Virus record (IMG/VR): IMGVR_UViG_3300042566_001283
Span: 1-38,583 of that record
From: a virus
Direction: 5' to 3' (one strand)
DNA length: 38,583 nucleotides
In this document: piece by piece, positions 2,494 to 38,583 of the stretch
Position numbering within the stretch: position 1 is the first letter of the stretch
How the letters are laid out: each line of letters begins with the position of its first letter
Notes under the pieces: model-generated
What the model saw: only the letters and a program-made list of their open reading frames with translations
Database searches by the model: none
What the model was told of the DNA's origin: nothing
Made by a program: the position numbers and the translations under genes

Positions 2494-2523
2494 AACTCCC
2501 CCGTCTTCGGATGGGGGTTTTTT
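2494..2523 (+). terminator. Rho-independent terminator after tail tube gene
   Basis: Stem CCCCCGTC / GATGGGGG closed by a cUUCGg tetraloop, followed by six T residues. It insulates the very highly expressed tail tube message. The complementary strand carries the stop codon of the HNH gene at its edge. Confidence 0.9.
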
Positions 2524-3011
2524 CATCCATTGTTCGCGTATTTCCCGTGATATTTAATTCGTTCTTTTTGAACTTCAAATTTAGCTTCTTCCAATGTTTC
2601 AAATAATTTTGTATAAACCCTTTTTTTATTTACATTTATATAAGCTGTCCATTTATTTAATCTTTTATTGAAAGAAACACCTTTTACGCCAGAAGAATTA
2701 TTTTTTTTCTTAAAAACATTTATATTGTTTTCTTGTCTATTTATATTTCGTAGATTTTCAATTTTATTATTAGATTTATCATTATCAATATGATCTATAA
2801 TGTTTGGAGTATAACCATAATGATATATAAAAATTAGTCTATGTAAAAAATAGACTTTTCGAAATAAACCTATTTGAGTATAACCATTTTTACATTTATA
2901 ACCAGCTTTTTTACCTATTTTTATTCTTTTATGATTAAAATCATTCTTCTTCCAATAAAGATTTCCATCCTTATATTCAAAGTATTCCTTTAAAAGTTCT
3001 TGTGTAATCAT
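2523..3011 (-). CDS. Free-standing HNH homing endonuclease with AP2 domain
   Basis: A 162-residue protein with an HNH_3-type core, residues about 55-95: HRLIFIYHYG, then IIDHIDNDKSNNKIENLR. A C-terminal AP2-like DNA-binding segment follows (SSGVKGVSFNKRLNKW...). This pair is standard for phage-borne selfish endonucleases that nick or cut intergenic DNA and are copied by recombination. It lies against the direction of the tail genes, between tail tube and tail chaperone. TAAGGAGG lies 6 bases before the ATG, and its promoter resembles those of the other minus-strand genes. No intron or intein was seen around it. Confidence 0.9.
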   Translation of the reverse strand: MITQELLKEYFEYKDGNLYWKKNDFNHKRIKIGKKAGYKCKNGYTQIGLFRKVYFLHRLIFIYHYGYTPNIIDHIDNDKSNNKIENLRNINRQENNINVFKKKNNSSGVKGVSFNKRLNKWTAYINVNKKRVYTKLFETLEEAKFEVQKERIKYHGKYANNG

Positions 3012-15052: not shown

Positions 15053-16435
15053 TTATGCTGAGAAGCGAGGCCGTAGACCTGTGCAAGGGACAGGCTTTGT
15101 AGCCTCTGGCACTTTATAACCTGTCGAAGGTGGGTCAAACGGTACATCGTCTGTCTCATCTTCTGACCAAGGGTCTCTAAATGCTGCAACATTTTGCGGG
15201 GCTGCTTCCATATGGTCTGCTGTAATTAACGCATTAAATTCTGGAAGAATAGCATCGACTGTGTTATTTTCAGGAACATAAACTTGACCATATTGCATCA
15301 AGTCTCCCTTCATTTCATTTGAAAGGGTAGGCATCATTCCGTCTGGGCTTTTAATCTTTTGTTGAACAAAGTTTTTAGCTTTTGTATTCACATAGACTTT
15401 ACTAACATAGAAACGCGGTACCACTTTGCTATTATCGTCAATCACATCTTTTGATAAACAGATCACACCCCAACCCCCAAAATTTCCGCCTTCAACTGTT
15501 TGATCGTCATTACTTGAAAGCTTGCTTTTTGCGGTAGCCATTCGAAGATATGGGTTATACCCGTTCACACCATTGAAATCAAGATCGGAACAGTATTGCC
15601 CGTTTGGATAAGAGATATACCAAGCAGCTTCAACTCTTGCATCGTGTCCATAATGTTCTTTAACATATTCGCTGTATTGCTTCACGATCTTATCAAAGTC
15701 TTCCCCCTTCAATTGGGTTCGAGTTGTGCTGTCTTCATTTTGAACAACAGAACATTCGAAGCGTCCGCTGACGTCGACAATTTTAGCGGCTTCAACAGGA
15801 TTAAACGCTGGAAGTAAAGCACGCAATTCAAAGCCAATGTATGGAAGCCAAAAGCTGCTCTTTGCTTCTTCAAGTTTAGCTTCTTCAGTTTGATGCTGTT
15901 CAAACGATTGATCCATTCTTTCTTTCAATGCTTTAGATTGTTCAGCATCGTCAGCTATAAAAGCATCACCGACCCAAGCTTGAACGCGTTCAACTTTATT
16001 GAGTTTATGATTCATTGTAAATGTAAACAAAGCTTCAATAATTTTATTTTTGTTTTTACCCGCCGAAATCACGCGAGTTGCTTTCATAATACGATTGCCA
16101 GACTTTTTGTCTTTGCGTAATACTTCCGCATTTTCGAGAACAACATAATGACCGACAGGGATCTTCTCTTCCATTTTACGATCAATACGGTGAGTCAAAT
16201 AGGGGGCTGCTTTAGTTCGTGCTGGATCGCGTTGTTCAGTTTTTACACCGCGTCCGAAGGCTTCAGCATCGATACTTACTGCAGCGGTTCTTCCATCATT
16301 AAGTGTTCCAAAAATAATGTTTTGAGCAGTGTCATAACCTGTCACAGCCATTACCATATCACGTTTAACTGGGGTATATGATTTAGTACCGTTGTTAATT
16401 TGTTGTGTTGCGATTGATGTTTGAAAATAAGCCAT
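15053..16435 (-). CDS. Unknown replication-region protein with SSB-like acidic motif
   Basis: A 460-residue protein with a strong ribosome site (AAAAGGAGAATTATT before ATG). No named family is recognised. The first 150 residues are beta-rich and basic (KIPVGHYVVLENAEVL, KATRVISAGKNKNK). Near the C-terminus is DPWSEDETDDVPFDPP (about residues 430-445), which resembles the acidic, proline-phenylalanine tip by which bacterial SSB recruits repair proteins, though here it is not at the very end. It lies downstream of helicase and RusA genes but has its own promoter. A ssDNA-binding or recombination role is plausible but not shown. Confidence 0.6.
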   Translation of the reverse strand: MAYFQTSIATQQINNGTKSYTPVKRDMVMAVTGYDTAQNIIFGTLNDGRTAAVSIDAEAFGRGVKTEQRDPARTKAAPYLTHRIDRKMEEKIPVGHYVVLENAEVLRKDKKSGNRIMKATRVISAGKNKNKIIEALFTFTMNHKLNKVERVQAWVGDAFIADDAEQSKALKERMDQSFEQHQTEEAKLEEAKSSFWLPYIGFELRALLPAFNPVEAAKIVDVSGRFECSVVQNEDSTTRTQLKGEDFDKIVKQYSEYVKEHYGHDARVEAAWYISYPNGQYCSDLDFNGVNGYNPYLRMATAKSKLSSNDDQTVEGGNFGGWGVICLSKDVIDDNSKVVPRFYVSKVYVNTKAKNFVQQKIKSPDGMMPTLSNEMKGDLMQYGQVYVPENNTVDAILPEFNALITADHMEAAPQNVAAFRDPWSEDETDDVPFDPPSTGYKVPEATKPVPCTGLRPRFSA

Positions 16436-16467
16436 AATAATTCTCCTTTTTTGTTGTGGCGTTAAAC

Positions 16468-16520
16468 ATAAGATTTTTTGTCTTATATATACATAATAAC
16501 ATATTTCACGGGGGTGTCAA
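16468..16520 (-). promoter_or_regulatory. Early-type promoter and operator for the 15053-16435 gene
   Basis: Minus strand: TTGACA (16520-16515), 16-bp spacer, TATTAT (16498-16493), GTATATATAAG, then ATAAGA-N7-TCTTAT (16468-16473 / 16481-16486), centred 18.5 bases from the -10 centre. The TGA stop of RusA (16519-16517) is part of the TTGACA box. Confidence 0.8.
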
Positions 16521-16873
16521 GTGTTTTTATCAATAATTTTAATTATTTTTATTAAACATTTTCCACCTTTAATTTTTTCCATTCTAAAAACGTGCATTTC
16601 ATCAACTTGACTATCGTCTTCCCATACACCTGCCTTTGTTAAACTATCAAAAATCGCCTTTTCGATGTTGTCAATATCGCGTCTTCGAAGGTCAGGTGGG
16701 TAGAGTAAAATAGTAATTGAAACACGGTCTGTATTAAAAGAAGGCATTCCTTGTGTCAGTTGTTTAATCTCTTCTGTATAAGCAACACCTTTTTTACTAA
16801 TGACAAGCCTATTTCGAACTTTCATATAATAAGAATTTAACGAAGGTGGGTAGCTTGTTTCGATTTCAATCAT
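16517..16873 (-). CDS. rusA: RusA-like Holliday junction resolvase
   Basis: A 118-residue protein of typical RusA length. The catalytic stretch is clear: PPDLRRRDIDNIEKAIFDSL (about 59-78) followed by AGVWEDDSQVDE, giving acidic residues Asp66, Asp68 and Asp86/87 in place of E. coli RusA Asp70, Asp72, Asp91. It cuts four-way junctions, useful for resolving concatemers or recombination intermediates before packaging. It overlaps the helicase stop by four bases, so the two are co-expressed. Confidence 0.93.
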   Translation of the reverse strand: MIEIETSYPPSLNSYYMKVRNRLVISKKGVAYTEEIKQLTQGMPSFNTDRVSITILLYPPDLRRRDIDNIEKAIFDSLTKAGVWEDDSQVDEMHVFRMEKIKGGKCLIKIIKIIDKNT

Positions 16874-18390
16874 ACTTGCTCCAATCTTGCAGTTTCTAAA
16901 TTTGTTTCAAAGTCAACATCAATTTTTACAATATAGCGTTTATTGTTAATTTCAATCACTTCTCTATTAAAAACTTGCTTATAGTTTTTAGATTGATGAT
17001 CGTTTGGAAGATCAGAGTCAAACACTAATTGAACAAAGCGTTCACGAATGCCGTTATGTCCTTTAAGTTTTCCTTCAAAATTCACCTCGATGCCATACTC
17101 TCTATTAAACGCTTTTTCAAGCATTGGCCAAAATACACTGGAACTCATCGGCTTTTCACCGCGACTTATACAGAAATCATTATAATTAAGATAGACATCC
17201 TTTTTCGAAATACTTGCATCTTCTTTATGTTTTAGAGAGCGTTCAAGAAGAAAACGCCAGGCTGAGTTGTTATTAAGTTGAGCTTGCTTCTTTAATATCG
17301 TATCGCATTCAAGTGAGTGAAACTTCATATTATTAAGAAGTAAAGATCGTAAACCTTTTAGGGCCCAGATCAAAACTTGATCAAGTTCGTCTTCAATAAT
17401 ACGATCTTTAATGTCAGCAATAATTTGGCTATCTTCTAATTTTTGATTAAAATCAATAAAAATAAAGCGACGCCATAACCCATCTGATTTATCTAAACCT
17501 AATGGAAGTTGGTTCGCTGCAATGATAAATTTAGCTTTAGGCTGGAAGGTCATCGGATCTTTATAGAGCAACTTGACTTGAATCTTATCACCTGTCACCA
17601 AGGCTTTAAAGTTATCTTCTTGAATGTTTTTACCCGCGTCAGGTGAGAAGACAAGAGTCGCATCAATCATTTCACTGAGATCCGAAGGGCCCAACTTGTC
17701 TAATTTTAATGAAGTCACTTTATAATGTAAAGCAGAGACGACATCAATTAAAACGCTTTTTCCATTTCTTCCATCGCCAAGCAAATAAACTGCTTTTGTT
17801 TCACCGTTAATGATTGGGGTTAAGCTATAACCGACCCATTGCGATAAAGTGAGTTGAACATCATTGGCAGGAAGAGAAGTTGAAAGATAATGAGAGAATA
17901 GACCGCTCTTATTTAATTCAGGTAATTCAATTTTGTAATCTTTAAATTGTAATTCGCTTGCAAGTTCAGGGTTTGGCAAGAATTTACGAAGATAAACATT
18001 TAAGCAATAGGTATGCGTATCTCTGTCCTGGTCAGGTTCGCTAATGGTTAAACTCCCATCAGAAAGTAAACGCAAGACATAGTCGGCACAAGGAATAACA
18101 ATCTCATTATTACTCTTCTTTTGTTTAAGTTCTTGTAAAATCATTCCTGCCGTTGCTGCACAACTTTTAATCATTTTATCAGAAACCATCGCAGGCATAT
18201 ACTGTTCAAGATATTTACCCGCAATTTCATAAATCTTAGATGAATCAAGTCTAGACCAATAGACGCCATTCCAGCTGTAAATGTTGTTTCCTATTCTTCG
18301 ATAATCTTTTTTACGCAAAAACTCAACAAAATGAAGTGTTGCTGATTTCTTTTTTTCGTTTTCAAGTGTTGTTTGTACTTCTGTTGTCAT
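16870..18390 (-). CDS. P4/D5-type SF3 replicative helicase (phage/plasmid primase family, C-terminal part)
   Basis: A 506-residue protein. Residues about 140-195 fit the D5_N region. The SF3 core has Walker A GDGRNGKS (205-212), an acidic Walker B region (ATLVFSPDAG, 244-253), the Asn sensor in FIIAANQLP (289-296) and arginines GLWRRF (304-309). A C-terminal domain, about 393-460 (ISKKDVYLNYNDFC...GIRERFVQLVF), looks like the origin-binding winged helix of this family. I see no zinc-ribbon, TOPRIM or AEP primase module, so it may be helicase only. It is the first gene of an operon with rusA. A second copy of its C-terminal domain is encoded at 28363-28761. Confidence 0.92.
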   Translation of the reverse strand: MTTEVQTTLENEKKKSATLHFVEFLRKKDYRRIGNNIYSWNGVYWSRLDSSKIYEIAGKYLEQYMPAMVSDKMIKSCAATAGMILQELKQKKSNNEIVIPCADYVLRLLSDGSLTISEPDQDRDTHTYCLNVYLRKFLPNPELASELQFKDYKIELPELNKSGLFSHYLSTSLPANDVQLTLSQWVGYSLTPIINGETKAVYLLGDGRNGKSVLIDVVSALHYKVTSLKLDKLGPSDLSEMIDATLVFSPDAGKNIQEDNFKALVTGDKIQVKLLYKDPMTFQPKAKFIIAANQLPLGLDKSDGLWRRFIFIDFNQKLEDSQIIADIKDRIIEDELDQVLIWALKGLRSLLLNNMKFHSLECDTILKKQAQLNNNSAWRFLLERSLKHKEDASISKKDVYLNYNDFCISRGEKPMSSSVFWPMLEKAFNREYGIEVNFEGKLKGHNGIRERFVQLVFDSDLPNDHQSKNYKQVFNREVIEINNKRYIVKIDVDFETNLETARLEQV

Positions 18391-18413
18391 AATAATCTCC
18401 TAATTTTTCATTG

Positions 18414-18465
18414 AAGCTTTGGTGGCTTACTTATATAGAATAGTTGATCAAATCATTATTGTCAA
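18414..18465 (-). promoter_or_regulatory. Early-type promoter for helicase-rusA operon
   Basis: Minus strand: TTGACA (18465-18460), 17-bp spacer, TATTCT (18442-18437). A short AAGC-N7-GCTT repeat (18414-18417 / 18425-18428) lies in the same register, 18.5 bases from the -10 centre, as the operators of three other minus-strand genes. Confidence 0.7.
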
Positions 18466-18481
18466 TAGCATTATTAAAAAT

Positions 18482-18800
18482 AAATAGTTTTATTTATAAA
18501 TAGAAGATTTGAACAAGGCAGATCAAGGCTAAAACTGGGTATTGTGCTTTGCCTGATCGGCATCAAACCCGCTTAGTTATTGGATTCGTACAACCATCAC
18601 AACCTTTTTCTTTATTTTAAAAAATATATATATAGAATCATAGATCTTATCCTATTTTTTACTATATAAGTTTTAAAATGGCCTTTTGGGTTGTGCTATT
18701 GTGCAAAAAATCAAAAAACCTTTATAAATCAATACTTTAACTTGATCGGGCAACGGTACGACCCTCTTTTTGACCATTGATCTTGCACAAGGGTTTAAAA
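18482..18800. repeat. Duplicated noncoding region, copy A (candidate replication origin)
   Basis: Most of the 525-base gap between the helicase gene and the plus-strand gene at 18916. It aligns with 28870-29190 at a constant offset of 10,388, with only two single-base shifts near the right end. It includes an exactly shared block of 58 bases (18555-18612) and another of 45 (18615-18659). The segment has no ORF. It holds repeated TTGTGC / GCACAA and GATCGG motifs in both orientations around a very AT-rich centre. Position next to an SF3 helicase gene suggests an origin, as in phage P4; function is inferred. Confidence 0.8.
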
Positions 18801-18864
18801 TCAATGAGATAAAAACTTTCTTTCATTTTTTTATAAAAAAAGTGTTGTAAACCCTTGACAACCC

Positions 18865-18892
18865 TTGCCAAAGTTATTATATCGGTTATGAT
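18865..18892 (+). promoter_or_regulatory. Early-type promoter for phosphoesterase-relaxase operon
   Basis: TTGCCA (18865-18870), 16-bp spacer, TATGAT (18887-18892), followed by GTATATATAGAG. The TATGAT-GTATATATAGAG string is the same as in the promoter at 25413-25440, so this plus-strand operon belongs to the early promoter family. It fires divergently from the helicase promoter across copy A. Confidence 0.7.
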
Positions 18893-18915
18893 GTATATAT
18901 AGAGGGAGACAAATT

Positions 18916-19425
18916 ATGGAAATTGAAGATTATCAAAAAATTAAAAATTGGCAAACATTATCAGAAGCTGTGTTGTTTGACTATTATAATAAGTTGGGTG
19001 AGCGTTTACTCGCACGATTGCTTTATAAAGAGTTAAGCGATAAAGACGCAATTAAGAAAATGAGAGCACAGAAAGTCAATGAAATAGATGCGAATAAACA
19101 CGAGAGAGACTTTCGAAAAATTAACCCTGAATTAGAAGCAAGAGAAAAGGAAAAAGATCGCGAATTAGATGCTCTACTTCAAAAGATTCGTTTAAGGAGA
19201 GCAACAATGACAACGACGAAAAAGATTACTTTGAAAACATTGTTCAAAGATATTGATCAAACTATTCTAGAAATTACTGAACTTGCTGAAGAACGCGATG
19301 TTTACATTGAAGATTTTGAAGGAAAATACCCAACTGAATCTTCTGAAATTATTCTTTACATTCACGATTTTATAAAGTGGATGTTAGATAGTGTTAAAAA
19401 GATCACTTTAAAATCTTCTATTTAA
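18916..19425 (+). CDS. Coiled-coil hypothetical protein, first gene of relaxase operon
   Basis: A 169-residue, strongly charged helical protein preceded by AGAGGGAGAC. Residues about 45-95 are rich in Lys/Glu/Arg and look like a long coiled coil. An in-frame ATG at 19207 (codon 98) has its own good ribosome site (TTAAGGAGAGCAACA), so a second product of 72 residues, MTTTKKITLKTLFKDIDQ onward, is possible. No family is recognised. As the first gene of the operon with phosphoesterase and relaxase it may be a DNA-processing accessory, but nothing in the sequence proves that. Confidence 0.7.
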   Translation: MEIEDYQKIKNWQTLSEAVLFDYYNKLGERLLARLLYKELSDKDAIKKMRAQKVNEIDANKHERDFRKINPELEAREKEKDRELDALLQKIRLRRATMTTTKKITLKTLFKDIDQTILEITELAEERDVYIEDFEGKYPTESSEIILYIHDFIKWMLDSVKKITLKSSI

Positions 19426-19449
19426 TCACCATATAATTTGGAGAACAAA

Positions 19450-20571
19450 ATGAAAAAGCAAACTGCACCTTTGAGTGAAATTGAAACTAAAATTAAAGAA
19501 GCAACCCGCGATGAATGTATTGACGAACTTCGAAGAATTGCTAAATTAGATCCCGAAAAATTTATTAGCCGTAATTTTTTTAGAGCAAATTCTAAATTAG
19601 CAGAATCTGCATGGAATAGACATTTCGGTACATTTGATGAGTTCAAGCGTATCGCAGGTTTAACCCTTTCAAGACAACAACAGCAATTGGAAAAACATAT
19701 TGCGAAACATGCAAGCGTCGATCACTATCGAAAGATTAGTTTAGAAAATCAAGAATACGGCGAAAAGTATATTAAGCCTGGAAACGGAAACAAAATTAAG
19801 ACGGTATTGATTGCTTCCGATTTACACGATGAAGAGATTGATCGATTCGCATTAAGAGTTTTTGTAGATACAGCTAAACGCATTCAACCCGATGTCATTT
19901 GTTTGGCGGGCGATACTTATGATTTAGCTGAATTTGGTAAATATGGTGTTGACCCTCGCGAATGGGATGTAGTATCTAAATTAAAGTTTACAAAAGAAAA
20001 CATTTTAAGACCATTAAGAGAAGCTGCTCCAAACGCTCAATTTGATATGATTGAAGGTAATCACGAAGCTCGACTTGTTAAGCATTTAGCCGATCAATCT
20101 CCTGCAATGCGGGCTGTTCTATCTGATTTTTTGGGCTTGACTTTAGCAGATATTTTTGCTTTAAGAGAATTAGAGATCAATTATATTACTAAAACAAATT
20201 TAGCAGCCTGGGGAACAAAAGATTTTAAATCTGAATTGGCAAACAATCATAAAGTATATTGGGACAGCCTTCTTGTTCACCATTTTCCGTATGCCAAAGC
20301 CTGGGGTATGCCTGGAGTAAATGGACATCATCATTCTTATAAAGCTGAAACAATTTACAATTTAACTTATGGTTCTTATCAGTGGTGCCAATTAGGTTCT
20401 CTTCATAAAAGATCTGCAAGCTATTGCGATGGTGAGAAATGGTCTTGCGGTTTTATGATTGCTCATATTGATACTGTATCTAAAAATGTTAATTTTGAAT
20501 ATGTTGACATTAAAGATTTAGCCATTGTGGGTGGCAAGTATTATGAGAGACACCCAAGCGAGGTAAGCTAA
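19450..20571 (+). CDS. Calcineurin-like metallophosphoesterase with N-terminal DNA-binding-like domain
   Basis: A 373-residue protein; ATG 19450 (TTTGGAGAACAAA upstream) is preferred over TTG 19438. All metallophosphoesterase motifs are present: DLH (Asp124, His126), GDTYD (Asp155), GNHE (Asn204, His205), His277 in VHHF and GHHH (293-295). The first ~90 residues (ISRNFFRANSKLAESAWNRH, FGTFDEFKRIAGL) resemble a small DNA-binding module seen in front of phage phosphoesterases and homing enzymes. Nuclease activity on DNA ends or hairpins, like Mre11/SbcD relatives, is one option; nucleotide or protein dephosphorylation is another. It ends two bases before the relaxase start. Confidence 0.88.
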   Translation: MKKQTAPLSEIETKIKEATRDECIDELRRIAKLDPEKFISRNFFRANSKLAESAWNRHFGTFDEFKRIAGLTLSRQQQQLEKHIAKHASVDHYRKISLENQEYGEKYIKPGNGNKIKTVLIASDLHDEEIDRFALRVFVDTAKRIQPDVICLAGDTYDLAEFGKYGVDPREWDVVSKLKFTKENILRPLREAAPNAQFDMIEGNHEARLVKHLADQSPAMRAVLSDFLGLTLADIFALRELEINYITKTNLAAWGTKDFKSELANNHKVYWDSLLVHHFPYAKAWGMPGVNGHHHSYKAETIYNLTYGSYQWCQLGSLHKRSASYCDGEKWSCGFMIAHIDTVSKNVNFEYVDIKDLAIVGGKYYERHPSEVS

Positions 20572-20572
20572 A

Positions 20573-21631
20573 ATGAAACAGATTGTATCTTTTGATAAAT
20601 TAAAAAACTTCGGACAGATCGGGGCAAGCTCTTCTCATACTTATCGAACAAGAGAGACCCCGAATGCAGATGAAGAGCGTTTTAATCTTAATCGCTATTT
20701 TAGAGCAAATACCGTTGAACAATTGACAAAGTCAATTAAAGAGCGAATTGCTGCTTCTATCAATAAACCTCGTTCAAATGCGGTACTTTGTATGGAATAC
20801 TTTGTGTCCGCTTCACCTGAATTTTTTGAAGAAGATAATGGCAAGCAATGGAAGCAGTTCTTTAATGACACAGTGGAATGGCTTGACGAAAGACACGGTA
20901 AAGAAAATGTCGTTGGGGTGGTTATTCATTTAGACGAAAAGACACCGCATATGCATGCTTATGTTGTGCCCATCGATAAACGCGGGCATCTCTGTGCTAA
21001 AACATTTATTGATGGTCGTCAAAAGTTGCGGGAAATGCAAGACAGCTTCTTTGATAAAGTGTCTAAAAAATATGGGGTAGAGCGTGGAATGAAAGGGGCT
21101 TTAATTAGTCATCAAAAAATTCAAACTTATTACGGCCATATTGAAAAAGCTTTAGATGATATGCCTTCTGTTGAACAACTTAAACGAATGAAAATAGAGG
21201 AACATATTGAATTGACGCAAGGCCTTTTCGTGAAAACGCAAGAATTGAAACAACAAAACAATTTACTTGAAAAAGAGCGAGTTAAACTTTCTTCATATAA
21301 TCTTTCTTTAGAAAATAAAAATAAACTTTTAACAAAGAGTATTGAAACTTTCAAGAAGATTACAAAAAAGCTTATTAAATCAGTGATTAGCAAAGATAAA
21401 TTTAATGAATTCTTTAAAGTGAATGTTGAAGATGATCCGTTAAAATCTTTTGTTGAGTCAGGTCAAGCAGAAAGTGAAGAGATGGCGGCTTTGAAGATTG
21501 CTTCTAAAGTTCAAAATAAAACATTGATGACTTGGTTTGATAAAGTGATTCAACGCCTTGCTCCAAATGAAATTCCAACAGAAACGAAGGACGAGGTGAA
21601 AAAATCAATAAAATTAGGTACAGACCTTTGA
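20573..21631 (+). CDS. MOBV-family relaxase (Mob_Pre, MobM-like)
   Basis: A 352-residue protein with the hallmarks of plasmid relaxases of the pMV158 MobM type. His22 in SSSHTYRTRETPNAD is at the same residue number as the MobM nucleophile. HLDEKTPHMHAYVVP gives metal ligands His119, Glu122, His126 and His128, with the same spacing as MobM His126, Glu129, His133, His135. After the ~200-residue catalytic domain comes a coiled coil (about 205-270), also as in MobM. These enzymes nick one strand at oriT and stay bound to the 5' end for transfer or rolling-circle replication. It is intact and expressed with the phosphoesterase. A relaxase is not an ordinary phage gene. Confidence 0.93.
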   Translation: MKQIVSFDKLKNFGQIGASSSHTYRTRETPNADEERFNLNRYFRANTVEQLTKSIKERIAASINKPRSNAVLCMEYFVSASPEFFEEDNGKQWKQFFNDTVEWLDERHGKENVVGVVIHLDEKTPHMHAYVVPIDKRGHLCAKTFIDGRQKLREMQDSFFDKVSKKYGVERGMKGALISHQKIQTYYGHIEKALDDMPSVEQLKRMKIEEHIELTQGLFVKTQELKQQNNLLEKERVKLSSYNLSLENKNKLLTKSIETFKKITKKLIKSVISKDKFNEFFKVNVEDDPLKSFVESGQAESEEMAALKIASKVQNKTLMTWFDKVIQRLAPNEIPTETKDEVKKSIKLGTDL

Positions 21632-21655
21632 TTTTTTGACGTTTTGTGCTATCAT
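21628..21655 (+). promoter_or_regulatory. Promoter for lysis operon
   Basis: TTGATT (21628-21633), 16-bp spacer, TATCAT (21650-21655) with an extended TGC just before it. The -35 box overlaps the last codons of the relaxase gene, so lysis genes can be switched independently of the early operon. Confidence 0.6.
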
Positions 21656-21685
21656 ATAGAAAATGGAAAACTGTATGGTAGCACT

Positions 21686-22042
21686 ATGGACTGTCCTTCG
21701 AATCTTACTGAAATCACAATGAAAGTGATGAGCGCTTTCGGGGGATTCCTTGGCGGCAGTTCTTTGCTTATTTATATTAAACCAAAAAACATTAAAGATG
21801 GTATTGTTCGTGTTTTAGTCAGTACCGCTGCTGCAGCAACCTTAGCCCCTCCAATAACATTAAAAATCTTTGATGCGTCAGCGGCTTCAGATAGTGAAGT
21901 TTTAATGGGGGTGGCGTTTTCTATTGGCTTTATCGCTTGGAATGTTTTAGGGGCTGTTGCGAACTTCTTTGCGAACAGACAAGGAAAAGATATCGTTGAA
22001 ATGACAAAAGATATTAATCCTTTAAATAATGGAGGTCAATAA
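21686..22042 (+). CDS. Probable holin (three membrane segments)
   Basis: A 118-residue protein from ATG 21686; an in-frame TTG at 21644 lies inside the promoter and is not used. Three hydrophobic segments are visible: around MSAFGGFLGGSSLLIYI, VRVLVSTAAAATLAPPITL, and VLMGVAFSIGFIAWNVLGAVANFF, with a charged C-terminus. That is the class-I holin layout, and it is the first gene of a cassette with endolysin and spanins. It would form lesions in the inner membrane to free the endolysin. The ribosome site is weak, which suits a tightly timed holin. Which of the three membrane proteins here is the true holin cannot be settled by eye. Confidence 0.65.
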   Translation: MDCPSNLTEITMKVMSAFGGFLGGSSLLIYIKPKNIKDGIVRVLVSTAAAATLAPPITLKIFDASAASDSEVLMGVAFSIGFIAWNVLGAVANFFANRQGKDIVEMTKDINPLNNGGQ

Positions 22043-22659: not shown

Positions 22660-23106
22660 ATGACTCCTTCTGATAAATGTTATGATTTAATCAAGTCTTT
22701 TGAAGGTTGTAAATTAAAAGCATACCCTGACCCTGGAACTCATGCAGAACCTTGGACCATCGGCTATGGAACAACGAAGATTGATGGAAAGCCTGTCCCT
22801 CACGATTTAACAATTACACAAGAGCAGGCAAATCATTATCTACAATTAGAAGTTGATGAAAAAGCGAAAGGGGTAAACAATTTATTAAAAGTTGATGTGA
22901 CTCAAAGTCAATTCGATGCCTTAGTTTCTTTTGCTTATAATTGCGGACTGGGTAATTTAGAGAAGTCAAGCCTTTTGAGATATTTTAACGCTGGAAATAG
23001 TAAAGCCGCAGCAGACGAATTTTTGAAGTGGAACAAAGCCGCAGGACAAGTAATGTCAGGTTTAACCCGCAGGCGTGAAGCAGAAAGGACCTTATTTTTA
23101 TTATGA
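22660..23106 (+). CDS. Endolysin, GH24 lysozyme
   Basis: A 148-residue phage lysozyme. KSFEGCKLKAYPDPG and EPWTIGYGTTKIDG give the catalytic set Glu15, Asp24 and Thr33 of the GH24 family, and the C-terminal SGLTRRREAERTLFL is the common ending. It cleaves the glycan strands of peptidoglycan. There is no signal peptide or membrane arrest segment, so it depends on a holin for release. GAGG lies upstream of the start; the stop overlaps the spanin start (ATGA). Confidence 0.95.
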   Translation: MTPSDKCYDLIKSFEGCKLKAYPDPGTHAEPWTIGYGTTKIDGKPVPHDLTITQEQANHYLQLEVDEKAKGVNNLLKVDVTQSQFDALVSFAYNCGLGNLEKSSLLRYFNAGNSKAAADEFLKWNKAAGQVMSGLTRRREAERTLFLL

Positions 23107-23459
23107 ACTGGCTTCCTATTCCTTTAAGTATCTTAAAATGGATCGGCATTGCTTTAGTCGTTGCGGGCTTCTCTTTCTATATGTATGAGAAAGGTTATCA
23201 TAACGCTGAGAACGATCTTCGTATTAAACAGTTAGAGATGATTGAAAAAGAAGTAGCACAAGCGAAAGAACAGGCGAAAGAAGAGTATTCTAAAGCCCTA
23301 CAAGCTGAAAAGAATCGCTTAGCACAGTTAGAGAAAGCAAACAAAGCAAAAGACGATGCAGCTGCTATTATTAAAGTTCAAGTCGCTGAACAATGTAAAG
23401 TTGTTCCAAAAGGTATTACAGATAAATTAAATGAGCTAATTAAAGGAGCAAATCAATGA
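23103..23459 (+). CDS. Rz: Inner-membrane spanin (Rz-like)
   Basis: A 118-residue protein with one N-terminal membrane segment (about 11-30, LKWIGIALVVAGFSFYMYE) and a long periplasmic coiled coil (Lys/Glu/Ala-rich, 35-100) containing a cysteine near the end (EQCKVVPKG). This is the i-spanin layout. With the o-spanin it bridges the envelope and fuses inner and outer membrane in the last lysis step. It overlaps the o-spanin start by four bases. Confidence 0.87.
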   Translation: MNWLPIPLSILKWIGIALVVAGFSFYMYEKGYHNAENDLRIKQLEMIEKEVAQAKEQAKEEYSKALQAEKNRLAQLEKANKAKDDAAAIIKVQVAEQCKVVPKGITDKLNELIKGANQ

Positions 23460-23704
23460 AACTTTATATTTTATTAGCTATGTTTTTGACGGGCTGTGCT
23501 TCTACAGTTCAACCTGTGAAAGAGAATCTCACTATGCCATCGACTTATTCAATGTTGCCTTGTGAACCATTGCCTCAGATTCAGGGAAATACTTTACAAG
23601 CCGTCGTGAATAATCAAATTGATACGATCGGGCTTTACAGAGCGTGTAAAGAACGCCATCAATACCTCATTGAATATGTTCAAAAAATCAAGGACTTAAA
23701 ATGA
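23456..23704 (+). CDS. Rz1: Outer-membrane spanin lipoprotein (Rz1-like)
   Basis: An 82-residue lipoprotein precursor: short hydrophobic leader and lipobox LTGC with Cys14, giving a mature product of 69 residues containing several prolines near its start. The gene follows the i-spanin with a 4-base overlap, the separate-gene arrangement. Outer-membrane anchoring of this protein is the clearest evidence that the host is Gram-negative. It also has two further cysteines (LPCEPLP, YRACKERH) that could form intermolecular disulfides. Confidence 0.88.
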   Translation: MKLYILLAMFLTGCASTVQPVKENLTMPSTYSMLPCEPLPQIQGNTLQAVVNNQIDTIGLYRACKERHQYLIEYVQKIKDLK

Positions 23705-24012: not shown

Positions 24013-24687
24013 AATATAATAAAATTTTGCTTCTATTTTCTTATAGTTAGTCAATTGTTTTTCAAGACGGTTTATCTTCTCATCTTTATCTTTACTTAAT
24101 TGAACAATGATACGCAATACCTGTGCATCATAAAAGCGATCTTTTTTAGCTTGAATTAAACGATCATTTTGTAAAGAAAAGCGAGCATCTAAACGATAGA
24201 CTGCTTTCAATAAATGGTTATACCCTTTTAAATGTTTAGCGACTAAACGGGCATAACGCCACAAAAACGCAGGGTTAACTAATTTGCTTTTAATTTCTTC
24301 TTTGTGATTGTATTGCGAATGATCTGGGTTATACCCGTAAAAAGCATAAAGAAGAACATTCATTGTATAAAAGTTAAAGGAATGGCCATAATTTTGTTCT
24401 TCACCTGAAAGTGCATGACAGAATTCGTGGATCAATACTGTAAAAATAAACTCTTTTGAATTGTTTTGAAGTGATTCAATCATTCGATATTCATTCAATC
24501 GAATTTGTTTTTGTGTATAACTACACAAACCTGAAAATCGATCCTTATCGAAATCAAAGATTAACTTAAATGATTTAGAGTATTCTGTTCCAAAGTCATT
24601 TTGGAGCTTCTTATAAAGCACCAAAAGTTCTCTTTTAAATGCATTAAGATCTTTTTCTTCATACTCATAAACTTTTGATACTCTCAT
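23962..24687 (-). CDS. SprT-like zinc metalloprotease with C-terminal membrane segment
   Basis: A 241-residue protein. LIHEFCHALSGEEQNYGHSFNFY gives HExxH (87-91) and a third histidine at 102 in GHSF, the pattern of SprT / Wss1-like proteases. The rest is helical and basic, ending in a likely coiled coil and a hydrophobic segment (FYYILGGLSLLFVPTLF) that could anchor it in the membrane. SprT-like enzymes in eukaryotes (SPRTN) remove proteins crosslinked to DNA; in phages the target is unknown. It is a single-gene early unit with its own promoter and AGGAGATAATA before ATG. Confidence 0.75.
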   Translation of the reverse strand: MRVSKVYEYEEKDLNAFKRELLVLYKKLQNDFGTEYSKSFKLIFDFDKDRFSGLCSYTQKQIRLNEYRMIESLQNNSKEFIFTVLIHEFCHALSGEEQNYGHSFNFYTMNVLLYAFYGYNPDHSQYNHKEEIKSKLVNPAFLWRYARLVAKHLKGYNHLLKAVYRLDARFSLQNDRLIQAKKDRFYDAQVLRIIVQLSKDKDEKINRLEKQLTNYKKIEAKFYYILGGLSLLFVPTLFKLV

Positions 24688-24706
24688 TATTATCTCCTTT
24701 GTGGTG

Positions 24707-24749
24707 GGGGTTATACATATAATATAACCCCTTCTATTCTATTTGTCAA
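24707..24749 (-). promoter_or_regulatory. Early-type promoter and operator for metalloprotease gene
   Basis: Minus strand: TTGACA (24749-24744), 17-bp spacer, TATATT (24726-24721). A perfect 9-bp inverted repeat GGGGTTATA-N7-TATAACCCC (24707-24731) spans the -10 box, its centre 4.5 bases downstream of the -10 centre. The same layout occurs at 27370-27411. Confidence 0.8.
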
Positions 24750-24754
24750 TAGTT

Positions 24755-25099
24755 TTATTTATATTTATGAAGAAATTTAGGGATGTCCTTGTTTTCAGTG
24801 TTTTTGTAAAGATATTCAAGTTCTCTTTGATTGATAATCGTTTCAACTAAATGAGCAAGTGTGCCTTCGTATTTTGAAGCTTCACGAAGTTGATGCGGTG
24901 TAAAGTAAACACTGTTATCTTTGCTGACGTGATATTGATTATCAATAAAATCAAAAAGTAAACGCTCACCTTCTAAAGTCGGCCATTGGCAATATACGCG
25001 GTATTCCCCATTGTTTAATGTGTGTGATTCTCCGCAATTGTCTTCAAAAATAATTAAATTCAAAAAATTAAGTGCGTCATAAGCTTTGTTGTTTTTCAT
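24755..25099 (-). CDS. Hypothetical early protein
   Basis: A 114-residue protein with AGGAGACAACT before the ATG. It has aromatic and acidic segments (YRVYCQWPTLEGERLLFDFIDNQYHVSKDN) and a C-terminal helix. No family is recognised. It is the second gene of a two-gene operon with the 44-residue membrane protein encoded just upstream (10 bases apart). Confidence 0.7.
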   Translation of the reverse strand: MKNNKAYDALNFLNLIIFEDNCGESHTLNNGEYRVYCQWPTLEGERLLFDFIDNQYHVSKDNSVYFTPHQLREASKYEGTLAHLVETIINQRELEYLYKNTENKDIPKFLHKYK

Positions 25100-27259: not shown

Positions 27260-27348
27260 TTTAAGTCTCCTATTAAATTTTTGTAAAAGCATAGACACAA
27301 AGTAAGAACCAAGTGCAGCTTACGAAAGTCCATTGTAATTTTGTCATT
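27256..27348 (-). CDS. 30-residue membrane microprotein, leader of RHH operon
   Basis: A tiny ORF with a strong ribosome site (AAGGAGAAACAAA before ATG), reading MTKLQWTFVSCTWFLLLCLC and then FYKNLIGDLK, so one membrane-spanning segment and a basic tail. Its TGA overlaps the ATG of the RHH-like gene (ATGA), which supports real translation and coupling. It is the first gene after the promoter at 27370-27411. Confidence 0.55.
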   Translation of the reverse strand, partial: NDKITMDFRKLHLVLTLCLCFYKNLIGDLK

Positions 27349-27369
27349 TTGTTTCTCCTTAGTGGTGAA

Positions 27370-27411
27370 GGGGTATACTTATAATATAACCCCTTCTTTT
27401 CTATTTGTCAA
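27370..27411 (-). promoter_or_regulatory. Early-type promoter and operator for RHH-methyltransferase operon
   Basis: Minus strand: TTGACA (27411-27406), 17-bp spacer, TATATT (27388-27383). GGGGTATA-N7-TATAACCCC (27370-27393) spans the -10 box at the same register as at 24707. The TGA stop of the upstream gene (27410-27408) is inside the TTGACA box. Confidence 0.8.
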
Positions 27412-27692
27412 TAGTTTTGATTGCCTAAATTTAAATTAAAATAAACACTTTCTAAAAATTGTTTTGTCGTTAGAGTTTGTTCATCCCAATGTTTAAGATC
27501 TTCTTGAATCGCATTCCACATATAGTCGCCATAAAATTTGTCAAACTTAGCTTGACTAAAATCAGGGTCAACCTTCTTCGCGTGAAGTTCGACATAATAC
27601 ATAAACTGTTCGTAAACTTCTTTACAAGTGCCATACTTGCGAATGTCTGCGTTTACTTTGTTATAGACTGTTTCAAATTTGTTGTATTTCAT
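27408..27692 (-). CDS. Hypothetical early protein
   Basis: A 94-residue protein; ATG 27692 with AAAGGAGAATCATT upstream is preferred over the start at 27758, which lies in the promoter. It is acidic and aromatic (YEQFMYYVELHAKKVDPDF, KFYGDYMWNAIQEDLKHWDE), probably all helical. No family is recognised. It is a single-gene unit whose 5' leader is identical for about 46 bases to that of the helicase-paralogue gene at 28363-28761. Confidence 0.7.
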   Translation of the reverse strand: MKYNKFETVYNKVNADIRKYGTCKEVYEQFMYYVELHAKKVDPDFSQAKFDKFYGDYMWNAIQEDLKHWDEQTLTTKQFLESVYFNLNLGNQNY

Positions 27693-27719
27693 AATGATTC
27701 TCCTTTTTTGTTTGTAGTG

Positions 27720-27774
27720 ATATAAGATTTGTTGTCTTATATATATATAATAACACATCTATTCTATTTGTCAA
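27720..27774 (-). promoter_or_regulatory. Early-type promoter and operator for the 27408-27692 gene
   Basis: Minus strand: TTGACA (27774-27769), 16-bp spacer, TATTAT (27752-27747), then ATATATATAAG. ATATAAGA-N7-TCTTATAT (27720-27742) is centred 18.5 bases from the -10 centre, the same as at 16468 and 28789. Confidence 0.8.
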
Positions 27775-27786
27775 TACTTTTATACA

Positions 27787-27815
27787 CTTTTTTTTAATTA
27801 TTTTTATGATATAAT
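27787..27815 (+). promoter_or_regulatory. Promoter for secreted moron gene
   Basis: TATAAT (27810-27815) preceded by an extended TGA, with a poor -35 box (CTTTTT near 27787). It is divergent from the minus-strand promoter at 27720-27774 and is not of the early family. Confidence 0.5.
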
Positions 27816-28362: not shown

Positions 28363-28761
28363 TTAAAGTAATTCAAATGAGAGATAAACATAACGCTCTC
28401 TTGTGCCATCTCGTTTTTTAAGTTTTCCTTCTAAATTGATAAAATGATTTTCAATGGAAGAAAGTTCTTTTTCAAGAGCAGGCCAAAACACAGAAGAAGC
28501 GATTGGAATGAATTTAAATCTTATGCAAAAAGAAATATATAGATCGTAAAGTTCATTTTTTGAAACCATATGCGTTTCTGAAGTTTTGATATGATAAGAT
28601 TGAATGAAAGATTTTACACAAGAATAACGTTTTGAAATATCTTTAACGATAGTCTTTTTAGACTTCTTTTCAACAAGATAATAAAGCACATCAACCAATT
28701 CTTTAGGAATGTCTTCATTTTTTGATAATAAAACTAATTTTTGAAATATATCTGTGTTCAT
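28363..28761 (-). CDS. Stand-alone paralogue of the SF3 helicase C-terminal domain
   Basis: A 132-residue protein. Its C-terminal 68 residues follow the end of the helicase encoded at 16870-18390: VSKNELYDLYISFC matches ISKKDVYLNYNDFC, SSVFWPALEKEL matches SSVFWPMLEKAF, and EGKLKKRDGTRERYVYLSF matches EGKLKGHNGIRERFVQLVF. The ATPase part is absent. The first 60 residues are helical and may derive from the lid region before this domain. In P4-like helicases the corresponding domain binds origin DNA. The gene is transcribed away from copy B of the duplicated noncoding region, so it may bind it as a replication or packaging regulator. Confidence 0.85.
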   Translation of the reverse strand: MNTDIFQKLVLLSKNEDIPKELVDVLYYLVEKKSKKTIVKDISKRYSCVKSFIQSYHIKTSETHMVSKNELYDLYISFCIRFKFIPIASSVFWPALEKELSSIENHFINLEGKLKKRDGTRERYVYLSFELL

Positions 28762-28788
28762 TTTGTTTCTCCTTTTTTGTTTGTAGTG

Positions 28789-28843
28789 ATATAAGATTTG
28801 TTGTCTTATATATACATAATAACATTTTTGCTCTATTTGTCAA
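28789..28843 (-). promoter_or_regulatory. Early-type promoter and operator for helicase-paralogue gene
   Basis: Minus strand: TTGACA (28843-28838), 16-bp spacer, TATTAT (28821-28816), GTATATATAAG, then ATATAAGA-N7-TCTTATAT (28789-28811), centred 18.5 bases from the -10 centre. The leader is a near-exact copy of that at 27699-27745. Confidence 0.82.
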
Positions 28844-28869
28844 TAGTCTATCAAATTTATTTTAAATAT

Positions 28870-29190
28870 AAATAGTTTTATTTATAAATAGAAGATTTGA
28901 ACAAGACAGATCAAGTCTAAAACAGGGGGTTGTGCGTTGCCCGATCGGCATCAAACCCGCTTAGTTATTGGATTCGTACAACCATCACAACCTTTTTCTT
29001 CTTTTTAAAAAATATATATATAGAATCATAGATCTTATCCTATTTTTAACTATATAAGTTTTAAAACAGCCTTTTGGGTTGTGATGGTTGTGCGAAAATA
29101 CAAAAAATCTAATAAAATCAATACTTTAACGCCGATCGGGCAACGATCAACCCCTATTTTTTACCCTTATTTTTGCACAACCCCTTGATC
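28870..29190. repeat. Duplicated noncoding region, copy B (candidate second origin / crr-like or packaging site)
   Basis: Homologous to 18482-18800 and more symmetrical. Perfect inverted pairs are nested around an AT-rich centre near 29040: GATCAAG / CTTGATC (28909, 29184), GGGGTTGTGC / GCACAACCCC (28926, 29175), GTTGCCCGATCGG / CCGATCGGGCAAC (28936, 29132), ACAACCATCACAACC / GGTTGTGATGGTTGT (28978, 29077). It forms most of the 622-base gap between the helicase-paralogue gene and terS. It may be an origin site, a cis site for the paralogue, or part of the pac/cos region; sequence alone cannot decide. Confidence 0.8.
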
Positions 29191-29208
29191 AATGAATAAA
29201 AAAAAGAA

Positions 29209-29237
29209 TTGACATAAAATCTGTTTAGTGTGATAAT
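29209..29237 (+). promoter_or_regulatory. Strong promoter for pre-terminase leader RNA
   Basis: TTGACA (29209-29214), 17-bp spacer, GATAAT (29232-29237): consensus -35, one mismatch in -10, ideal spacing. It directly follows copy B. Confidence 0.8.
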
Positions 29238-29243
29238 GTTCTT

Positions 29244-29319
29244 GTCTGACTTCGAGTTGTGGTGGCTCTGTTCAGGAATGAACACAGACAAGGGCGGGTG
29301 TCTCCCCTGCCCTTTTTTT
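29244..29319 (+). ncRNA. Candidate late-operon leader RNA (lambda 6S / HK022 put-like position)
   Basis: Between a strong promoter and a strong terminator, with no ORF. CTTGTCTG (29241-29248) pairs perfectly with CAGACAAG (29285-29292), enclosing TGTTC-aggaat-GAACA (29269-29284). The last three bases of the outer stem are also the first bases of the terminator stem, so the two folds compete. It stands directly before the terS gene, like the pR' leader that Q or put RNA controls. The predicted length is about 76 nt; the regulatory role is inferred. Confidence 0.6.
29290..29319 (+). terminator. Terminator between leader RNA and terS
   Basis: AAGGGCGGG-N7-CCTGCCCTT (one G-T pair) with seven T residues (29313-29319). 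A weaker promoter for terS follows immediately. Confidence 0.9.
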
Positions 29320-38426: not shown

Positions 38427-38583
38427 ATGCTAGCAACATTAGACGCTGTTAAAACTTTATTGCAAGTCAATCATAATGAAGATGATGATTTTATCACTTC
38501 ATTGATTGAGGCATCGTCTACCTTTGCTGAGACTTTTTGCGATACGAAGTTAATGAAGCGGCATATTAAAGAAATTTATATGG
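38427..38583 (+). CDS. Head-tail connector, gp6-like, 5' part (continues at position 1)
   Basis: The ATG at 38427 begins MLATLDAVKTLLQVNHNEDD. The first ten codons (38427-38456) are unique to this end; from 38457 the sequence repeats bases 1-127. Joined to 1-540 it gives one 189-residue protein. The start is coupled to the upstream stop (TAA, then two bases, then ATG). Confidence 0.85.
   Translation, partial: MLATLDAVKTLLQVNHNEDDDFITSLIEASSTFAETFCDTKLMKRHIKEIYM
38457..38583. repeat. Terminal direct repeat (circular assembly overlap), right copy
   Basis: Exact copy of bases 1-127; remove one copy to obtain the 38,456-bp circle. Confidence 0.93.

Follow-up and report, generated by a model that had tools for sequence, protein, structure and literature searches.

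It was found that the gene mobV of a tailed phage encodes a MOBV (Mob_Pre) HUH relaxase that is catalytically complete, as judged from its family, its modelled fold and its aligned active-site residues, and that the oriT kept by nearly all sampled relatives is absent from the phage genome. The protein may tentatively be regarded as a histidine nickase that is active, was acquired from a lineage of MOBV plasmids, is kept without its oriT and acts on a diverged site. The window is the entire IMG/VR virus record IMGVR_UViG_3300042566_001283 (38,583 nt), and all coordinates are positions in this record.

A MOBV relaxase gene in a siphophage-type genome

The first 127 bases of the window recur exactly at its end (1-127 and 38457-38583, a direct repeat). 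The genome, of siphophage type and about 38.5 kb, is thus closed into a circle or redundant at its termini. The siphophage-type gene set is complete, with the small and large terminase, portal, capsid, connector, tail and tail-tip genes and a lysis cassette. The portal is fused to a minor-head domain, and the capsid-position protein is related to its counterpart in the Brevundimonas phage Polewnik. A sequence-only reading had called the window a tailed phage genome, which is borne out by the terminases, the portal, the capsid-position protein, the tail genes, the lysozyme and the 127-bp repeat. The record also has full virion genes on a circular element, a feature by which phage-plasmids are defined. 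No ParA, ParB or plasmid Rep was recognised among the proteins scanned, where many genes have no family and a P4-type replicase and origin-like repeats are present. Neither an integrase nor a repressor nor a partition gene was recognised in the phage genome.

No close phage relative was found by DNA, by relaxase-specific peptides or by capsid peptides. A host assignment was dropped, as the terminase relatives are mostly Alphaproteobacteria while the MobV relatives are mostly Gammaproteobacteria. The 42-kb phage-plasmids of Piscirickettsia, found by their terminase, were rejected as a model because they have no annotated relaxase and their tails differ. An HNH/AP2 homing-endonuclease-like gene (2523-3011, minus strand) with a G+C content of only 0.227 lies antisense within the tail genes.

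The relaxase gene and its neighbours are as follows.

18916..19425, plus strand: 169-aa ORF without a family match, opening the rightward operon
19438..20571, plus strand: metallophosphoesterase (phrog_20266), stop codon followed by mobV after 1 bp; ATG at 19450 as the likely start
20573..21631, plus strand: MOBV relaxase gene mobV, 352 aa, open from ATG to TGA; relaxase domain at about residues 1-190, helical tail at 183-348; by MobM alignment, nucleophile His22, metal ligands H119, H126 and H128, acidic residue E122
21644..22042, plus strand: holin-like gene (phrog_2359, phrog_1024), which may in fact start at the ATG at 21687
22660..23106, plus strand: phage lysozyme (PF00959)
23103..23704, plus strand: Rz/Rz1-like pair (23103-23459 and 23456-23704), from sequence features, no family match

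The mobV product matches Pfam Mob_Pre (PF01076) at E 6.6e-44 and 150.5 bits (cut-off 25.5) and the NCBIfam equivalog NF041497 "MobV family relaxase" at 174.6 bits (cut-off 100). In a PDB sequence search, MobM (4lvi, E 7.1e-18) was the sole convincing relative with a known structure, and His22 and H119/E122/H126/H128 align to H22 and the HxxExxxHxH motif of MobM. An AlphaFold2 model (mean pLDDT 80; about 90 for most of the relaxase domain) has the MobM-oriT crystal structures as its top matches (E 1e-14, target-normalised TM 0.87, rmsd 2.2 A). The earlier claim of an intact MOBV relaxase with a MobM-like nucleophile and metal-ligand set is therefore supported by the profile search, the alignment and the structural comparison alike, in each case at a level well above that expected by chance. 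Its claim of a coiled-coil tail is supported only in part; long helices are predicted (a 72-residue helix at residues 200-271 and a second one at 289-328), but the heptad periodicity is not above that of shuffled sequences (752/5000).

MobM of pMV158 is the MOBV1 prototype (PDB 4lvi-4lvm, 5n2q), and the phage protein shares with it the relaxase fold, the position of His22, the HxDExTPHMH metal motif and the helical C-terminal tail. The MobM protomer is 57.9 kDa, an oriT with inverted repeats and promoters lies directly upstream of mobM, and both the histidine chemistry and the oriT-promoter overlap have been described (PMC5863519). In contrast, the phage gene has no adjacent oriT, is read from a phage operon and encodes only 352 aa.

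From the divergent intergenic region 18391-18915, the rightward genes are ordered as the family-less ORF, the phosphoesterase gene, mobV, the holin-like gene, two small membrane-type ORFs, the lysozyme gene and the Rz/Rz1-like pair, whose second ORF has a lipoprotein-like start. The gaps of mobV are 1 bp to the phosphoesterase gene and 12 bp to the next ORF, and a Shine-Dalgarno-like sequence for mobV lies within the 3′ end of the upstream gene. In G+C content (0.347), GC3 and codon usage, mobV is like its neighbours, the codon-usage distance being 0.141 for mobV and 0.139 for the phosphoesterase gene. It had been proposed that mobV belongs to an early-type operon rather than a cargo island. 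The latter part agrees with these values and no island is visible, while the former is not supported, as the holin-like, lysozyme and Rz/Rz1-like genes directly after mobV mark the lysis end. In other phages, the phosphoesterase gene is found near PhoH, primase or lysis genes, and no relaxase was seen there (including loci L119-L122).

May the gene simply come from a plasmid fused to a phage contig during assembly? There is an apparent precedent. Klebsiella phage KP13MC5-1 (OP617746.1; L007) was considered as an isolate phage with MobV and was rejected, because at its end (about 171676-174135) this T4-like record is joined to a whole 2,460-bp MOBV plasmid that is 100% identical to plasmid NZ_CP070904.1 of E. 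coli. This "complete" record with a terminal plasmid is likely an assembly chimera. In the window, however, the relaxase ORF stands alone in mid-contig with phage genes at 1 and 12 bp, the contig is closed by the 127-bp repeat, and there is no oriT, no plasmid rep gene and no mismatch in composition. Thus, an assembly artefact is very improbable here.

The missing oriT and the MOBV relatives

Upstream of plasmid MobV genes, the common element is a hairpin followed by GTGTAGTGAGTACAC. The oriT tally was made on 20 relatives from the proteobacterial/Treponema group. In 19 of them, nine phage-like contigs among these, TAGT(A/G)AGT precedes mobV by 41-95 bp. The motif is absent from the sole exception (L022) and from five cyanobacterial plasmids of the sister group. 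The phage genome was scanned for the plasmid-clade motifs, the pMV158 motif and a hairpin-plus-TAGTGWG pattern with shuffled controls. No copy of TAGT(A/G)AGT lies within 300 bp upstream of the phage mobV, and its occurrence elsewhere in the genome is not above chance. The same is true genome-wide for TAGTGAGTACAC, TAGTRAGTA and TAGTGTGTTA as well as for the pMV158-type nick site, and the hairpin-plus-TAGTGWG pattern shows no excess over shuffles. An oriT-mobV module is defined by a hairpin with TAGTRAGT or TAGTGTGTTA ahead of mobV, and this arrangement was not found in the phage. An intergenic near-match, TAGTGTG at 29226, was rejected as an oriT; it overlaps a sigma-70-like promoter and is without a good upstream hairpin, and a mean of 2.27 such matches per shuffle is expected. 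Since no relative-type, pMV158-type or hairpin-nick site is above chance, the gene is, as far as these motifs can tell, kept while its cognate oriT is lost or diverged. Mobilisation and rolling-circle replication, both suggested earlier as uses of the relaxase, require a nick site and are weakened by the absence of the oriT that nearly all relatives keep.

The phage relaxase is placed basally in the proteobacterial group of a 28-row relaxase tree. Its branch is long (1.49) and its exact place unsure (support 90/82), and the best identity in the tree alignment is 39% over 240 columns. The nearest sequence relatives are encoded by small proteobacterial MOBV plasmids such as Oceanisphaera pD, Klebsiella pKp_SB617_3 and Acinetobacter pApiAN37a, with a best identity of about 44-47% over the relaxase domain. 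At 41-91 bp upstream of mobV, these plasmids have GTGTAGTGAGTACAC or a variant close to it, which is absent from the phage, and their relaxases have lost the fourth ligand (V/S/Y/T), whereas the phage relaxase keeps His. Among the sampled members of the proteobacterial group, the phage relaxase alone keeps all motif residues (HHEHH), the last His being replaced by V, S, Y, T or I in the others. In the more distant MOBV proteins of the tree, the complete motif is normal. Since all motif residues are kept against the loss of the last His in the clade, the active site seems to be under constraint or ancestral, and not decaying. An unusual metal site was seen in the mobV genes of contigs L019, L020 and L021, where the first motif His is replaced by Gln and the last one by Val, yet the oriT is canonical.

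The oriTs of this type are widespread on small proteobacterial plasmids, and the lack of an own oriT would leave the phage genome uncut. Thus, the relaxase might act in trans, nicking the oriTs of MOBV-type plasmids resident in the host and thereby disturbing or mobilising them. However, the diverged relaxase (at most 39% identity over 240 columns, long branch) may not recognise the plasmid motif, and I know of no precedent for a phage relaxase acting in trans on plasmid oriTs. This possibility is considered quite improbable.

How common are such relaxases in phages? None of 49 virus records of terminase or phosphoesterase relatives, which are distant and include many fragments, has a MobV by profile alignment A1, with which the positive control L018 was detected. 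Likewise, MobV was found at none of 80 genome loci with a related terminase, within the DNA covered by each locus. The terminase relatives are only about 45-55% identical in the terminase and many are fragments, which makes this a weak test of a "core gene". The core role proposed from the operon position thus finds no support in these distant and often fragmentary relatives. The same reading held that a relaxase missing from related phages would indicate a recent chance insertion. None was indeed found (0/49), but the ameliorated composition, the long branch and the loss of oriT make it less likely that the insertion is very recent.

No MobV family was matched in PHROGs (best E 0.0085), while BFVD has one strong match, a MobA/VirD2-type relaxase. 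MOBV matches were found in 10 of 50,697 phage records, and none of those inspected is in a phage backbone position; the match in a Streptococcus suis phage record lies within an island with tetracycline-resistance and partition genes. No MOBV relaxase in a tailed-phage backbone was found in the literature, most subscription journals being outside the search. In P1-like phage-plasmids, a relaxase or oriT was reported in only two, and these occur mostly in derived plasmids that have lost phage genes (PMC10879196). The phage and these elements are alike as phage-related genomes with a relaxase or oriT, but the phage has a full virion-gene set and a relaxase only, with no oriT recognised.

Two profile scans of IMG/VR gave a few dozen distinct MOBV loci. 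Several of these have capsid, tape-measure or ejection genes, which mark them as phage-like, as well as full oriT-mobV modules. In contigs L018-L021, L023-L025, L213 and L214, the MOBV gene shares the contig with phage genes (capsid, tape measure, DNA-ejection proteins), but unlike in the window it is directly preceded by a canonical oriT, so that the whole mobilisation module is complete. Since related phage-like contigs keep whole modules, phage-borne MOBV mobilisation appears to be a recurring solution. L018 (IMGVR_UViG_3300050582_000095; 13.6 kb, 55-bp terminal repeat) has a major head protein, a tape-measure protein, a P4-type primase, a resolvase-like ORF and a full oriT-mobV, and is possibly a small mobilisable phage-plasmid or satellite. 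The phage-like contigs L023, L024, L213 and L214, all with oriT-mobV, may represent a recurring mobilisable phage type; the module adjoins a 2037-aa protein in L023 and L214 (phrog_9880 in L023), and an integrase-like ORF lies near the L213 copy.

The main rival to an active nickase is a passenger gene, taken up from a MOBV plasmid but not together with the oriT, that has no phage function, whether expressed or not. It would account for an oriT that is gone although it lies less than 100 bp from mobV in 19 of the 20 sampled relatives, for the absence of mobV from all searchable phage relatives and for the few MOBV matches among the phage records, none of them inspected in a backbone position. 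However, the ORF is intact with a full active site, its composition is ameliorated, and it is tightly packed between phage genes. Since an unused gene should decay over the time needed for amelioration, a passenger is disfavoured and rather unlikely.

Replication genes and origin-like repeats

The sequence-only reading also regarded the relaxase as a possible starter of replication. The phage has other candidates for this task.

16870..18390, minus strand: P4-family primase/helicase C-terminal-type protein (TIGR01613, DUF5906)
18474..18815, no strand: origin-like repeat A, non-coding, sharing 86.6% identity with repeat B, with GGTTGTGC-type short repeats
28363..28761, minus strand: paralog of the primase/helicase C-terminal domain, 132 aa, 42% identity over 79 aa (E 6e-17)
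28862..29202, no strand: non-coding repeat B, origin-like, 86.6% identical to repeat A

The P4-type helicase-primase gene runs leftward from the intergenic region 18391-18915. Repeats A and B are direct repeats of about 340 bp with several GGTTGTGC-type short repeats, denser than the genome average; repeat A adjoins the P4-type primase gene, and repeat B adjoins the gene of the 132-aa paralog. Phage P4 has two cis sites, ori and crr, both bound by the C-terminal domain of the alpha protein. The two repeats beside the primase gene and the C-terminal paralog gene resemble this ori/crr layout. Thus, a candidate replication system apart from the relaxase may consist of the helicase-primase, the paralog and the origin-like repeats, which weakens the case for the relaxase as the starter.

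A putative small RNA gene (29209-29318) adjoins repeat B and has no counterpart at repeat A. It has a TTGACA-17-GATAAT promoter, a structured stretch of about 80 nt and a G+C-rich hairpin with a T run; the fold is -29 kcal/mol (z -2.1), with no Rfam match at the gathering score. Pfam, PHROGs and NCBIfam gave no convincing match for the 460-aa protein of the replication operon (15053-16435, minus strand). Among the leftward genes lie several short intergenic sequences that are related to one another (77-88% identity; 16433-16552, 24684-24756, 27344-27418, 27688-27807 and 28757-28869) and may be promoters or regulator sites in common use.

In tailed phages, HUH endonucleases do act as rolling-circle initiators, an example being gpA of phage P2. 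By analogy, the MOBV relaxase could initiate late replication or concatemer formation by nicking in or near the origin-like repeats. No recombination protein able to make concatemers was recognised in the phage genome, and expression in the lytic cycle is likely because mobV adjoins the lysis genes. However, MOBV proteins are, to my knowledge, no replication initiators, and the P4-type helicase-primase and two repeat-bearing origin-like sites are already there. Moreover, a search specific to MOBV-type sites found no nick motif with a hairpin in repeats A and B. A role as a rolling-circle initiator is thus unlikely.

A proposed nickase without a recognisable site

The active-nickase reading may be outlined as follows. 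The relaxase would be derived from small mobilisable plasmids and would have resided in the phage for some time. His22 would nick single-stranded or supercoiled DNA and, as in MobM, become covalently bound to the 5′ end through a phosphohistidine link, and the nick site would lie on the circular genome of the phage itself, diverged past recognition. The single-strand nick may lead to conjugative mobilisation through the secretion system of a helper plasmid, which is the ancestral use and slightly favoured, or else to the displacement of a strand in late replication and packaging. Basic replication is probably the task of the P4-type helicase-primase, acting at the two origin-like repeats, rather than of the relaxase.

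The intact ORF, the phage-like codon usage, the Shine-Dalgarno-like sequence and the full active site count for an active nickase. The lack of a recognisable nick site and the long branch with moderate support count against it, as does the lack of a recognised integrase, repressor or partition gene; because of the latter, a plasmid state that would reward mobilisation is not supported. It is also doubtful, although conceivable, that a plasmid MOBV relaxase was domesticated without oriT and now serves the lytic cycle as a core nickase, initiating late rolling-circle replication or packaging.

Relaxases define plasmid movement and are almost unknown in phage backbones. The repeated finding of full oriT-mobV modules on phage-like contigs suggests that mobilisable phages may be commoner than isolate collections show. 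If the phage is complete, with an intact relaxase and no oriT, it would point to a route to conjugatively mobile phage genomes or to the re-use of a conjugation enzyme for phage DNA processing. If the relaxase is a domesticated nickase, a conjugation enzyme would have been turned into a core enzyme of the lytic cycle.
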